From Planctopirus ephydatiae (GTDB lineage: Bacteria > Planctomycetota > Planctomycetia > Planctomycetales > Planctomycetaceae): a stretch of DNA of 64,000 bases. The notes below the pieces were generated by a model. It searched no databases. It had not been told where the DNA came from and saw only the letters and a list, made by a program, of their open reading frames with translations. The stretch lies in the NCBI RefSeq assembly GCF_007752345.1, contig NZ_CP036299.1:1054001-1118000 (forward strand), read 5' to 3'. Position 1 is the first letter of the stretch; the number at the start of each line of letters is the position of its first letter. Below, piece by piece: positions 9,095-13,676 of the stretch. The translations under genes and the position numbers were made by a program.

Positions 9095-10666
9095 TTACAC
9101 CCCGGGCTCTCGTTGCTCGCTTGGCTGGCCGATAGCCGCTTTGTTCAAAGCCTTCAAATACGCCTGAGCGCTGGCTTCGAGAATATCAGTGCTGACCGCT
9201 TTACCATGGTATTTGCGGCCACCAGTAATGAGTTCGATCATCACTTCACCCTGGGCATCTTTCCCTTCGGAGACACTGCGAACCTGATAATTGTCGAGTG
9301 TCCCGGAGACTCCCATGATGCGTTCAATCGCTTTGCAGACGGCATCCACCGGGCCATCTCCAATGGCAGCATCGCAATGCACCTGATGCTGGTCATCGTG
9401 CAGTTCGACAGTCGCTGTCGGAATCGTGCCCGTCCCGGCAGCAATATGAAACCTCTGCAGTTTCCAGCGATCCGAAGCGTTTCGATCCTGATGCTCAATA
9501 ATCGCGATGATGTCCGCATCGTAGACCGATTTCTTTTTGTCGGCGAGAATGATGAATTCATCAAAGACACGCTGGAACGTTTCATCGTCGAGAGTGTAGC
9601 CCAGTTCCGCCACTCGACTGCGAAAAGCATGTCGGCCTGAGTGCTTGCCCAGCACCAGATTCTGGCCCACAAACCCCACGTCTTCAGGACGCATGATTTC
9701 ATAAGTCTCACGGTTCTGCAGCATGCCGTGCTGATGAATACCCGATTCGTGTGCGAAGGCATTCTGGCCGACAATTGCTTTATTACGCTGGACAATCATG
9801 CCCGTCACGTTACTCACCAGTCGGCTGGCCTGGCAGAGCTTCTGAGTGTTGATCTTCGTACCGACTTTGTAATAGTCCTGCCGCGTGCGGAGTGCCATGA
9901 CGATCTCTTCCAGGGCCGCATTTCCAGCGCGCTCACCGAGCCCATTGATCGTACATTCGACCTGTCGGGCACCGGCTTCAACTGCCGAGAGGCTGTTGGC
10001 GACTGCCAGTCCAAGATCGTTGTGGCAATGCGCACTGATGACGGCTTGCTCGATATTGGGCACGTTTTTCTTGAGATAGCTGATCACGTTGAAGTAGTGA
10101 GAAGGCGTGGCGTAGCCCACGGTATCCGGAATATTCACAGTCGTCGCGCCATGACGAATCGCCGTCTCGACCACCTGTGCGAGAAATTCGAGTTCAGTTC
10201 GCGAAGCATCTTCGGGAGAGAACTCAATATCTTCGCAGCGCTCTTTGGCGCGACTGACCATCTCGGCGGTACGCTTGAGGATCTCTTCCGTGGCCATTTT
10301 GAGTTTGAACTCTCGATGAATGGCACTGGTAGCGAGGAAGAGATGAATTCGCTTGCGGCGGGCAGGCCCCACAGCATCCGCAGCTCGATCAATGTCTTCA
10401 TTCCGGCAACGAGCCAGGCCGCAGATCGTGGCCTGCTCGCCGAACCTTTCGGCGACCTTACGTACTGCTTCGAAGTCGCCAGGACTGGCAATCGGGAAGC
10501 CCGCTTCAATGACATCGACGCCGAGATCGACCAGCGCCTTCGCCACTTCGAGCTTTTCATCGGTGTTCATACTGCAGCCAGGAGACTGTTCACCATCGCG
10601 CAGTGTCGTATCAAAGATAATGATCTGGTCAGCAGGTGAGGTCTTTGTGGCAGATGTCATTTTCAT
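9095..10666 (-). CDS. leuA: 2-isopropylmalate synthase
   Basis: The first enzyme of leucine synthesis: it condenses 2-oxoisovalerate with acetyl-CoA. At 523 residues it has the usual length. The catalytic barrel (about 13-280) begins with [14 protein letters not shown] and has the metal-binding HCHNDLGLA; the linker carries [10 protein letters not shown]. The C-terminal LeuA regulatory domain, which binds leucine for feedback inhibition, occupies about residues 390-510. Start ATG at 10666 has GAGGA five bases upstream. No other leu gene is adjacent. The 5' leader contains a leucine-rich mini-frame and a terminator, so expression is probably also controlled by attenuation (see those entries). 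Confidence 0.97.
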
Positions 10667-10838
10667 AATCCTCGATTTAGTAATCCAAACTTACGGTTGA
10701 AGCTGAGAGAGCTGGAGTCGATCCAGCGTTCCACAGGCATTCACCATTCATCGAACAGTTGAAGACAGGTTGCGGGAAACCAGAACTGGCATCACCTGCT
10801 GGCACCTGTACCTCACTGCGAGTAAAGAGTCCGGGTAT

Positions 10839-10870
10839 AAAAAAACCCCGGTGCCAGCAGGCAACGGGGT
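10839..10870 (-). terminator. Attenuator terminator in the leuA leader
   Basis: Read on the minus strand, ACCCCGTTGCC (10870-10860) pairs with GGCACCGGGGT (10855-10845) around TGCT, ten of eleven positions matching, and runs straight into seven Ts (10845-10839). It lies 170 bases before the leuA start and 23 bases after the stop codon of the leader frame. Such a terminator inside the leader of a biosynthetic gene is the mark of attenuation. Confidence 0.88.
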
Positions 10871-10910
10871 CAAAATTCTGGTCATCAATCGACTACAGAT
10901 TTTCCCCCGT
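10864..10910 (-). promoter_or_regulatory. Candidate antiterminator of the leuA leader
   Basis: On the minus strand ACGGGGGAAAAT (10910-10899) can pair with ATTTTGACCCCGT (10876-10864): six pairs ACGGGG/CCCCGT, a small 1x2 internal loop, then five pairs AAAAT/ATTTT. The 3' strand is also the 5' arm of the terminator, so the two folds exclude each other. The 5' strand lies in codons 18-22 of the leader frame. A ribosome that finishes the leader would cover it and allow termination; a ribosome stalled early on leucine codons would leave it free. This logic is inferred from the sequence. Confidence 0.75.
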
Positions 10911-10964
10911 CCTGCGTAGTAGCAGGCTGGAGAGTCGTAGTAGATTAAAGTTTTCTGGATGCAT
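10893..10964 (-). CDS. leuL: Leucine-rich leader peptide of leuA
   Basis: A 23-codon frame read as MHPENFNLLRLSSLLL followed by RRTGENL and TAG. Seven of its 23 codons are leucine, in two clusters (codons 8, 9, 11 and 14-16) plus codon 23, mostly CTA. AAGGAT lies about eight bases upstream of the ATG. The CGACT in the leucine region can pair with AGTCG just after the stop codon, a possible strand 1:2 pairing. It is too short for ordinary gene finding. Known leu operons of Proteobacteria and Actinobacteria have such leaders; the symbol follows that usage by analogy. Confidence 0.82.
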   Translation of the reverse strand: MHPENFNLLRLSSLLLRRTGENL

Positions 10965-10986
10965 AGGGCTTTATCCTTATGACATA

Positions 10987-11015
10987 ACGCTAGAGACTCA
11001 CCGGACGGAAGTCAA
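10987..11015 (-). promoter_or_regulatory. Possible sigma70-type promoter of the leuA leader
   Basis: TTGACT at 11015-11010 is a good -35 match; with a 17-base spacer the -10 would be TAGCGT at 10992-10987, which is weak. Transcription from here would start some 15-20 bases before the leader ATG, as expected for an attenuator leader. The -10 assignment is uncertain. Confidence 0.4.
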
Positions 11016-11143
11016 GGGTTGGGTGTTGGCATGGACAAGGGAGGTTGAGTCTGGGTTCGGGGAACTGACATTCCATTGACCGCAGCTCAGCCAATGACAG
11101 TCCCATCTTGAAAACTGCTGAGAGACTGCCCATCGGTCTGATT

Positions 11144-11180: not shown

Positions 11181-13676
11181 TCATTTCCCGTACACCAGCC
11201 AGGCCGTGAACTTGCCATCTCGTGTCGCACGGGCACGAATCCAGTAACCCACTGTGTCATCCGGAATCTGCTCCACGATGGCTTTGCCAGCAGGAACAGC
11301 GATGGTCTTCCAATCGGTCCATAGACCTGTTCCTGTCACATCGATTTCAAGTGTCACGTCCACAGCCTCCGCCTGATCATGCGAGAGTTCAATGCGCCGG
11401 TGGTGATAGCCCGTCAGCAGATAGGGATCACTGGGAACGTTCGCCATCACCTGGCTGTTCTTCCATGGGCCGCCACTTCCTTTCGGTTGGCCCAAAGACC
11501 AGAGATCATCAACAGCACCCACCCACAGAGCGCAAGCTCCATCAGTCGAGCGGACCACATGTGGCCCGGCAACGGCGTCTGCGACACCCGAAAGCACCAG
11601 CAATCCTCGGTGGCTGGCGTAGTCATCAATGCTGTAACGGTGCGTAGTCACGGGCCGAATCTTGGCCATCCCGCTCGCATTTTCGGCTGGCAGTTCAAAG
11701 AAGGTCTGTCCAGCATGGAACAAGTCGCGCTCGGTACAGACTTCCCGGCACACACGCTGCGGGCCATAACTGCCCGAAGCCAGAGGTGCCTGCCAATCTC
11801 CCACTGGCAAGCGCCAGCGGCCCGATGCATCCTCATACACAATCGATGCTTCATCCCGGCTGATGACATTCTGCGGAATGGCGACATTTTTTGATGTCCA
11901 TGCCATGCCGTCAACATCATCGACTTTGACCAGCGTGAGTGCACCAGTCTTCAGATTCGTTGTCAGATCGTAGCAGCCCGTCTGGCCATTGGAGGTCCTG
12001 GCCACATGCCGCAACGAGCGAAAATTCCCCCCGCGCGAATGAATCACACCCCCCGAGCGCTTTTCAGAACCTGCCAACGATAAACCTTGAGCAAGATCAC
12101 TCACGTTTTTTCGAGACTCTGCGGGAGGGTTCGATGAGCCAAAAGTTGCTGTCACATTTTCGATGGGCTGATCGGAAACCAGTCGCATCCAAACACCCTG
12201 GAGATCGCGCGGCAGGCTCTCCCAGTGCGTCGAGCGACCATTGGCTGCCAAAGTTTTATAAGTCGTCCATTCACCAGTTCCCGCTTTGTCGACTTCCAGT
12301 CGAATACTCGCTAGAAGAGGCTGCGGGCTGAGAATGACCAATTGTCGATGGGTGTAGCCATCGATCAGATAGGGGTCGCTGGGTTGATTGGCGGCGACGC
12401 TTTCGTTGAGCCAGACCGAGCCGCGACCAATAACGGGTCCCAGGTGGTCAAGCTGCTCTCGATCGAGAAACCACAGGTTGGAGTGCGACTGACCGGGGCC
12501 GGCAATTTCTCCCTTAGCCTTGCGTTTGTTGAGGAACTCACTTTTTGCCGTGTCGTCGCATCCCAGAACGATCTTGTCGTTCCATGGACAGAAGTCGCCC
12601 ACAACCTTGAGATAGTTGCTGCGAGGAGTAATACCAGCCGAGTTGCCTGGTGAGAATGTTTTAGGAAACTTCCAGAAAGTTCCATGCATCGTGGCGAGCA
12701 GACTCTCTTCACCAATATCACGAATGCGGGGCCACTCGGTGTTCCAGCCGTGAGCTCCATCATAGCTGTGCGAAGCTTTGGGCAATCGATAGGTGTGCCA
12801 CTGACCTTTCTCACAGACCATGAGCAGAAGTGACTTAGCATCCCAGCCAAGACTCCAGATGGGTTGTGTTGAATTCGGATCGCTCGAAATGATCCCGCCA
12901 GGGCCAGTGACTTCTGTGAATTGATTACGTCGAATCAACTGCCAGTCCGTCCCGCCAACACCATCAAAATAGCCCAATGCTCCACTGGGAACCGTGGGAT
13001 CCTTTACGACGCGCGGATCGTGATCGCCGTTGTTGGCGTAAACGACAATCCCCTGCGAAGTGAATAATCCTTTGCCGTGATATCCAGGCAGTTTAGAGGA
13101 GACCGCTTTCGAGAGATCAATGGCCAACTGCTCGGGCTTGAAGTTGTTACCATCCCGGATCAGGCAGTTGACTTCGAGAGTCTTGAGATCGACTTCGTAG
13201 AGCCCTTCTTCCATCGTCGCGAAGTAGACTTTGGTTTGTGGGCTCGACAGGTGCGTCGCGTTTCCCGTCAGGCGGCCCGGCATCTTGTTGCGAGGAATCG
13301 TCCGTACTTTTCCATCAGCGTCGATCACATGGCTGCCAATGACGAGTTGATTGGTGGCTGCATGGATCATCCGGTTGGCGTTGGTTCCGCCTACACTTTC
13401 CGGGCGAATGATTTGCTGCAGTTCAGGCGTGACTTCATACAGTTTGTCGGATGATGCCAGCGGCAGATGCGGGCCATAGGTAATGACCCAGAGCTTGCCA
13501 CCAAACGGCACGACGGCTCCAGTACCACATTCCCCTTCGTCGTTGAACATCGCCAGGTGCGGATAGATCCCCGAGATCGGAGGTGCGACCTGCGGTGCTT
13601 GAGCCATGACAAAATCTAATAAGGCCCATAGCGAGAACAGGCAGGCGGAAAACCTCAAGACAGTACGGTCGATCAT
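11181..13676 (-). CDS. Large secreted protein of unknown function
   Basis: An 831-residue protein I cannot assign to a family. It opens with a signal peptide (hydrophobic core about residues 8-23, ending near AQA). The region to about residue 450 has repeated short beta-rich stretches with Gly/Asp turns (for example KLWVITYGPHLPLASSDKLY, TKVYFATMEEGLYEVDLKTL), as in beta-propellers that display a measured value. The rest has two similar blocks containing SDPYLIDGYTHRQ and SDPYLLTGYHHRR followed by TGxWTxWKT, so the C-terminal half seems to be an internal duplication of a beta-sandwich-like module. No catalytic motif is evident. A propeller plus carbohydrate-binding-like modules is only a guess. 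Confidence 0.75.
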   Translation of the reverse strand: MIDRTVLRFSACLFSLWALLDFVMAQAPQVAPPISGIYPHLAMFNDEGECGTGAVVPFGGKLWVITYGPHLPLASSDKLYEVTPELQQIIRPESVGGTNANRMIHAATNQLVIGSHVIDADGKVRTIPRNKMPGRLTGNATHLSSPQTKVYFATMEEGLYEVDLKTLEVNCLIRDGNNFKPEQLAIDLSKAVSSKLPGYHGKGLFTSQGIVVYANNGDHDPRVVKDPTVPSGALGYFDGVGGTDWQLIRRNQFTEVTGPGGIISSDPNSTQPIWSLGWDAKSLLLMVCEKGQWHTYRLPKASHSYDGAHGWNTEWPRIRDIGEESLLATMHGTFWKFPKTFSPGNSAGITPRSNYLKVVGDFCPWNDKIVLGCDDTAKSEFLNKRKAKGEIAGPGQSHSNLWFLDREQLDHLGPVIGRGSVWLNESVAANQPSDPYLIDGYTHRQLVILSPQPLLASIRLEVDKAGTGEWTTYKTLAANGRSTHWESLPRDLQGVWMRLVSDQPIENVTATFGSSNPPAESRKNVSDLAQGLSLAGSEKRSGGVIHSRGGNFRSLRHVARTSNGQTGCYDLTTNLKTGALTLVKVDDVDGMAWTSKNVAIPQNVISRDEASIVYEDASGRWRLPVGDWQAPLASGSYGPQRVCREVCTERDLFHAGQTFFELPAENASGMAKIRPVTTHRYSIDDYASHRGLLVLSGVADAVAGPHVVRSTDGACALWVGAVDDLWSLGQPKGSGGPWKNSQVMANVPSDPYLLTGYHHRRIELSHDQAEAVDVTLEIDVTGTGLWTDWKTIAVPAGKAIVEQIPDDTVGYWIRARATRDGKFTAWLVYGK

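Follow-up and report, generated by a model that had tools for sequence, protein, structure and literature searches.

Transcription of leuA, the gene for 2-isopropylmalate synthase, in the planctomycete Planctopirus ephydatiae is very probably governed by a ribosome-mediated attenuator, which would turn leuA on when leucine is short. This conclusion is drawn from the presence of all the necessary parts, their conservation, the covariation of helices 2:3 and 3:4, and the switch obtained in a folding model. Ribosome-mediated attenuation is a textbook mechanism, and it had been proposed for this locus in a sequence-only reading; conservation of the Leu-rich leader, terminator and antiterminator across the family, with covariation, supports that proposal. 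The analyzed stretch of DNA (hereafter the window, 64,000 nucleotides) spans positions 1054001-1118000 of the 5.21 Mb single-contig genome. The edge of the window truncates a tRNA gene at positions 1-73 (Rfam RF00005, 63.2 bits).

Examination of the region upstream of leuA confirmed the elements that the sequence-only reading had listed, namely a minus-strand frame of 23 codons including seven for leucine, with a ribosome-binding site of its own, an intrinsic terminator, and a second fold that uses the terminator-arm strand and begins inside the leader frame (Table 1). The codons of the leader are ATG CAT CCA GAA AAC TTT AAT CTA CTA CGA CTC TCC AGC CTG CTA CTA CGC AGG ACG GGG GAA AAT CTG TAG, so that the leucine codons are laid out as two CTA, CTC after one further codon, CTG CTA CTA after two, and CTG after six, with CTA accounting for four of the seven. 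At the place homologous to the Shine-Dalgarno-like sequence, ATAAGGA is also found in the congeners L004 and L005. The terminator stem consists of ACCCCGTTGCC and GGCACCGGGGT separated by TGCT, with 10 of 11 positions paired and a single T-C mismatch, and the first T of the U tract (10845) is also paired within the stem. This terminator is absent from the output of a simple terminator scan of the window, for which we take the stem mismatch to be the reason. In the antiterminator, ACGGGGGAAAAT (10910..10899) forms 11 pairs with ATTTTGACCCCGT, and RNAduplex lengthens this pairing to GCAGGACGGGGGAAAA with TTTTGACCCCGTTGCCTGC, reaching 10915, at -21.3 kcal/mol. The leuA product has 523 amino acids, and its ATG at 10666 lies 172 nt from the T run. 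The 211-nt stretch 10820-11030 folds with a z of -3.14, only 1 of 200 dinucleotide shuffles not being beaten. The minimum-energy fold of the window element also displays a feature beyond the earlier description, a 1:2 protector stem, to which the relatives point weakly (pairing z -3.9, mean fold z -1.0).

Table 1. Features of the leuA attenuator region, in window coordinates
Feature	Position	Strand	Basis and remarks
Leader ORF, MHPENFNLLRLSSLLLRRTGENL followed by a stop	10893..10964	-	Read from sequence; 23 codons, seven Leu
Shine-Dalgarno-like AAGGAT (AAGGA) of leader ORF	10973..10978	-	Read from sequence; about 9 nt 5' of ATG
Regulatory Leu codons 8, 9, 11, 14, 15, 16	10917..10943	-	Read from sequence
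Region 1, 5' arm of 1:2 protector stem, overlapping Leu codons	10922..10940	-	Minimum free energy fold
Region 2, GCAGGACGGGGGAAAAT, 5' arm of antiterminator, within the end of the leader frame	10899..10915	-	RNAduplex, swap test
Region 3, ATTTTGACCCCGTTGCCTGC, 3' arm of antiterminator, includes terminator 5' arm	10857..10876	-	RNAduplex, swap test
Terminator hairpin (regions 3:4)	10845..10870	-	Sequence; -16.4 kcal/mol; homologous helix covaries in relatives
U tract of terminator, seven T	10839..10845	-	Read from sequence
leuA, 2-isopropylmalate synthase, downstream of the attenuator	9095..10666	-	NCBIfam TIGR00973 leuA_bact, 738.7 bits, cut-off 598.7

A search at E<=1e-150 detected leuA in 133 of the 150 family genomes. 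After omission of three genomes with N-terminally truncated matches, 130 upstream regions (30 loci and 100 further ones) were scanned for a terminator (-9 kcal/mol or lower) preceded, at a distance of 5-90 nt, by the end of an 8-45-codon ORF in which a stretch of eight residues holds four or more Leu. This combination is present in 123 of the 130 upstreams versus 7 of 390 dinucleotide shuffles (three for each region), and the positive shuffles never exceed four Leu. The seven misses comprise upstreams that are cut or N-filled (L083, L117, L133), leaders displaced upstream by an intervening frame (L107, L109), and weaker Leu clusters (L029, L137). One of the 123 positives, L023, looks spurious on inspection; L103 looks genuine, although the scan picked another hairpin. 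Both were dropped for codon counts and folding tests, leaving 121 leaders, and removal of near-duplicates gave 96, of which 53 have the stop codon followed by GG (class a) and the remaining 43 form class b; 39 of the latter were aligned (alignment A2) and inspected by eye. Region 2 overlaps the stop codon in class a, typically within GGTCTTAGG, and precedes it (as in the window) or just follows it in class b.

Two loci carry a reading frame between the leuA attenuator and leuA, L107 (557-931) and L109 (139-966), and there the attenuator may control the intervening gene as well; the frame in L107 may encode a four-helix-bundle protein. A second leuA-like gene, 43-45% identical, occurs in L002, L006 and L007 (in the P. 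ephydatiae genome itself at G000:C1:2320352-2321416). The matched part of this paralogue reaches 406.9 bits, short of the 598.7 required for leuA_bact, and the three loci have no terminator in about 600 nt upstream.

The leader peptides retain their Leu runs and vary in the flanks, as in MNQNLLNLSLLLLLPHPSGMA, MSSLLLNLSLLLLPK, MRSSLRLLALSLLLR and the window leader. In L005, from a more divergent congener with a 94% identical leuA, the N-terminus of the leader differs, and the SLLL core, the match between regions 2 and 3 and the terminator are kept. These comparisons bear on the possibility that the Leu-rich peptide itself, through nascent-peptide arrest or translational coupling, and not the charging of tRNA-Leu, sets the position of the ribosome. 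Leader peptides are indeed alike within lineages (MRSSLRLLALSLLLR is shared by L116, L126 and L128), but across genera it is the Leu richness that persists and not the flanking peptide, and direct coupling is unlikely because 226 nt and the terminator separate the leader stop from the leuA start in the window. We regard this explanation as extremely improbable.

Conservation of the two helices, and not only of the frame, argues for attenuation. Helix 3:4 is 95.5% paired in 53 leaders, with 44 double-changed cells versus 16.1 in column shuffles, and on every measure 0 of 500 shuffles match the observed value. Helix 2:3 is 84.9% paired in 53 leaders and has 18 double-changed cells versus 9.0 in shuffles (0/500); three of its five measures are matched by none of the 500 shuffles, and the other two by 8 and 42. 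The gain in covariation for 2:3 is modest, since the core of this helix is nearly invariant. For both helices the covariation score peaks at zero slide, and changes in arm 3 are matched by two partners because this arm belongs to both. Loss of the leader frame or of the stems in related genomes, which would speak against attenuation, was looked for, and both proved to be conserved, with covariation.

Similarly, exchange of arm 3 between the 96 leaders showed a clear preference of region 2 for its own partner (-18.5 kcal/mol versus -15.1 with arms of other genomes, z -11.8). Within the two classes z is -6.8 and -8.3, and the window element pairs at -20.4 with its own arm versus a median of -10.95. 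Against shuffled region-2 sequences, the 2:3 duplex falls within the best 5% in only 70 of the 96 leaders. In L032, L033, L046 and similar class b leaders, CCTGAG is common to regions 1 and 3, and CTCAGG to regions 2 and 4, so that the four arms resemble two copies of one hairpin; an attenuator of this type may have arisen through hairpin duplication. A covariance model built on the leuA leaders (R1) and run on 61 family genomes, many of which also belong to its training set, matched the leuA leader in 57 of them by our reading of the table, including one genome (G020) in which the match lies at the edge of a contig and leuA is not visible there. At E<=0.05 the model misses the element of the window, as well as the leaders of G001, G027 and G054.

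To model the effect of ribosome position, the leading edge of the ribosome was set 12 nt downstream of the first A-site nucleotide, as an assumed footprint, and the rest of the RNA was folded. Without a ribosome, and with the ribosome at the stop codon, the probability of the window terminator is 0.99 in each case. Five Leu codons were modeled as stalling positions: for codons 9, 11 and 14 (0.07, 0.00 and 0.40) the model gives the textbook pattern, and for stalls on codons 8 or 15 the terminator stays at 0.73 or 0.86. Among the relatives, 38 of 96 leaders switch in this equilibrium model, and in the remaining 58 a Leu stall does not keep the terminator from prevailing. As modeled, this result speaks against a purely thermodynamic switch, and the mechanism in the 58 leaders would have to depend on which arms fold first. 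In transcripts truncated ahead of region 4 (n=96), arm 3 is sequestered with an average probability of 0.83 at the median Leu stall, versus 0.41 for a ribosome on the stop codon, 0.65 without a ribosome, and 0.63 at the best Leu stall of shuffled sequences; on average, the predicted shift is in the direction that an order-of-folding switch needs.

In the proposed mechanism, transcription would begin upstream of the leader and a ribosome would translate its 23 codons. With plentiful leucine the ribosome would reach the leader stop and cover region 2; regions 3 and 4 would then form the terminator, and transcription would end at the U tract ahead of leuA. A shortage of charged tRNA-Leu would stall the ribosome on the Leu codons, where it would cover region 1, so that the freed region 2 could pair with region 3, no terminator would form, and leuA would be transcribed. 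If the leader were not translated at all, pairing of regions 1 and 2 would free the terminator, and the default state would thus be off. Three steps of this scheme are inferred, namely the sensing of leucine (or of charged tRNA-Leu), translation of the leader, and the change in read-through.

Further evidence came from genes outside leucine synthesis, which the sequence-only reading had not considered: in the P. ephydatiae genome the citramalate synthase gene cimA is preceded by the same device, and in relatives both cimA and a DAHP synthase gene are. Nine weaker matches of model R1 were fetched; the gene downstream is cimA for five and a DAHP synthase gene for two, and neither of these for L260 and L261. 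The cimA and DAHP synthase upstreams, all within the family, were scanned over 450 nt at a distance of -12 to 90 nt, slightly more laxly than those of leuA. In 30 loci of 59 cimA matches (L271-L300; citramalate synthase by TIGR00977), at least three Ile in eight residues occur near a terminator in 26 family upstreams versus 0 of 90 shuffles. The cimA gene of P. ephydatiae itself, outside the window (L297, G000:C1:3625705-3627255, minus strand), has the leader MSLTFVYTVSIIGITTSGG, ending in a stop codon, with CCCCCGGTTATGCCGGGGG. Similarly, in 30 loci among the 65 DAHP synthase matches listed (L301-L330; by TIGR01361/NF006421), at least five Phe, Trp or Tyr in eight residues precede a terminator in 22 upstreams versus 1 of 90 shuffles, and 19 of these 22 leaders carry Trp, Phe and Tyr together, for example GGWWFYFYGFP. 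The eight DAHP synthase loci below the mark include L313, with 145 nt of upstream sequence, and L329, an N-terminally cut match that is not properly scannable; 18 of the 61 genomes, including that of P. ephydatiae, have no DAHP synthase match at E<=1e-80. Both kinds of leaders possess a terminator and a complementary region 2, with own-arm preferences of z -4.2 (cimA) and -4.8 (DAHP synthase).

The same scan detected no leader with at least two His in 30 family upstreams of hisG (29 of them with at least 300 nt of upstream sequence) and none with at least two Trp in 30 family upstreams of trpE (two loci being under the family cut-off). A Leu-rich ORF upstream of hisG in L345 was taken for chance. 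In the genus, 0 of 4 ilvB loci have an attenuator, with four weaker ilvB-like matches lying outside this count. The match between the leader amino acid and the pathway that the gene serves supports the mechanism more strongly than any other single observation. It also weighs against a reading in which the hairpin is the terminator of an upstream transcript or a small RNA, and the Leu-rich ORF and complementary stretch are coincidental. The upstream gene (11181-13676, minus strand) does end 216 nt before the leader, and many terminators stand between genes; coincidence is nevertheless very improbable, given the 123 of 130 upstreams versus 7 of 390 shuffles, the own-arm z of -11.8, and the finding of cognate leaders at cimA and DAHP synthase genes and of none at hisG or trpE.

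A T-box, a riboswitch (an RNA sensing tRNA or a metabolite) or a protein-bound attenuator, with the ORF incidental, was considered as well. T-box and riboswitch elements use the same exchange of terminator and antiterminator, and the accessible part of PMC2494555 reports that leuA of Geobacter and Pelobacter is preceded by a T-box. However, no Rfam family was found in the leuA element at the gathering score, and a permissive scan (E<=5) of seven loci returned five implausible matches, all under the gathering score. The T-box model in particular had no match in the window at the gathering score or in the seven loci at E<=5, and the Rfam Leu leader family, which we take to be RF00512, likewise had no match at the gathering score, no leader family appearing in the seven loci at E<=5. 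A search for known Rfam leaders or riboswitches at the gathering score returned only a tRNA match in the whole window. Moreover, the conserved part of the leuA leader is a run of CTN codons with a mixed third base, in an open frame whose end falls within region 2 or close to it, and the leader amino acid follows the controlled gene, which is hard to reconcile with an incidental ORF. A regulator of this kind is thus highly unlikely, and ribosome-mediated attenuation is the reading we retain.

The leuA-leader model R1 recognized the cimA and DAHP synthase leaders mostly through the terminator half, and the three leaders may share an origin, their codons having been exchanged. With moderate confidence, we suggest that planctomycetes use ribosome-mediated attenuation to control the entry enzyme in each of three pathways: leucine (leuA, in the family and probably beyond it), isoleucine (citramalate synthase), and the aromatic amino acids (DAHP synthase, with the Trp/Phe/Tyr cluster as a three-input sensor). 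The three would perhaps be of shared origin with exchanged regulatory codons, or convergent.

At greater distance, 16 leuA loci at 61-64% identity were considered (L203-L220, omitting the truncated L205 and the family member L214), including those of Zavarzinella formosa, Limnoglobus and other Gemmatales; 13 of them have a leader with at least four Leu in eight residues and a terminator, a count made without a shuffle control. In a sample across the phylum (30 of 31 non-family matches), also without a shuffle control, 7 of 30 loci, from five families, are positive at the stricter mark of at least five Leu in eight, and 23 are negative. As judged from these counts, the leader element appears to be old within the phylum yet not universal, or lost or replaced in places.

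The choice of leucine codons in the leaders differs from that in the controlled gene. Among the 796 Leu codons of 121 leaders, 744 (93%) are CTN with a mixed third base, and TTA and TTG together account for 52, being depleted against composition. CTA makes up 183 of the 796, versus 4 of 1028 in 30 leuA genes, and about 2% of Leu codons in window frames over 300 codons. The excess of CTA is mostly an absence of coding bias, because composition-shuffled leader regions already give 15.7% (0.157 versus 0.23 observed). In the selective-charging theory for E. coli, according to the accessible part of PMC1183508, CUA is the best of these codons, CUG is acceptable, and UUA and UUG are poor, and the codon choice in the leaders points in the direction of this theory.

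Several known systems resemble the planctomycete element. One is the leuL attenuator of Escherichia coli and Salmonella, in which a terminator precedes leuA and ribosome position sets the fold. As in the window, its leader ORF contains Leu codons including CUA, of which the Salmonella leader has three (PMC1183508, available part). It belongs to a different phylum, and the window element has no Rfam match at the gathering score; in planctomycetes, region 2 lies inside the leader frame (window) or overlaps or adjoins the stop codon (many relatives). For the actinobacterial LEU element upstream of leuA, the proposal is that a run of Leu codons pairs with the Shine-Dalgarno box of leuA and that the region folds into a pseudoknot, and mutations in the leader did not behave as in classical attenuation; unlike it, the window has an intrinsic terminator (172 nt before leuA) and an antiterminator well upstream of the gene. 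A Leu-rich attenuator peptide represses branched-chain synthesis in Staphylococcus aureus, according to the accessible text of PMC5794164; it belongs to the Firmicutes, acts alongside CodY, and is likened to the window leader by description. The aroR leader of Corynebacterium glutamicum aroF, which like the leaders of the relatives stands before a DAHP synthase gene (here with its operon), contains Phe-Tyr-Phe, and in the available part of PMC11802643 it is reported to be unresponsive to Tyr, whereas the planctomycete leaders hold Trp, Phe and Tyr in 19 of 22 cases.

In the accessible part of PMC4833913, short ORFs are described as statistically overrepresented immediately before genes, in Planctomycetes as well; the leader-gene peak there falls about 10-14 nt from the gene and is interpreted as reinitiation rather than attenuation, and leuA is absent from the main text. 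According to the part of PMC2965389 that could be consulted, leader-peptide control had, as of 2010, been known in no groups other than Proteobacteria and Actinobacteria until that study added its Firmicutes case, and the available text of PMC11109978 does not mention planctomycetes. The sequence-only reading knew of no planctomycete case; the literature searched, outside which most subscription papers lie, likewise describes no such leader in planctomycetes, be it before leuA or before DAHP synthase or citramalate synthase genes. The wide survey of Lopatovskaya et al. in 2010, cited in PMC4833913, could contain planctomycete predictions. The presence of attenuators in planctomycetes, the set of genes, and the aromatic leader appear to be undescribed in searchable papers. 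As judged from sequence comparison and modeling, the leuA attenuator would be ordinary in kind, well supported, and new in the phylum as far as we searched.

The cell plan of planctomycetes has long been debated. A conserved set of such attenuators would mean that in these bacteria ribosomes trail RNA polymerase at a distance short enough to direct termination, and it predicts short transcripts ending at the attenuators. It would also add many unannotated leader peptides, and with them candidate sensors of leucine, isoleucine, and aromatic amino acids.
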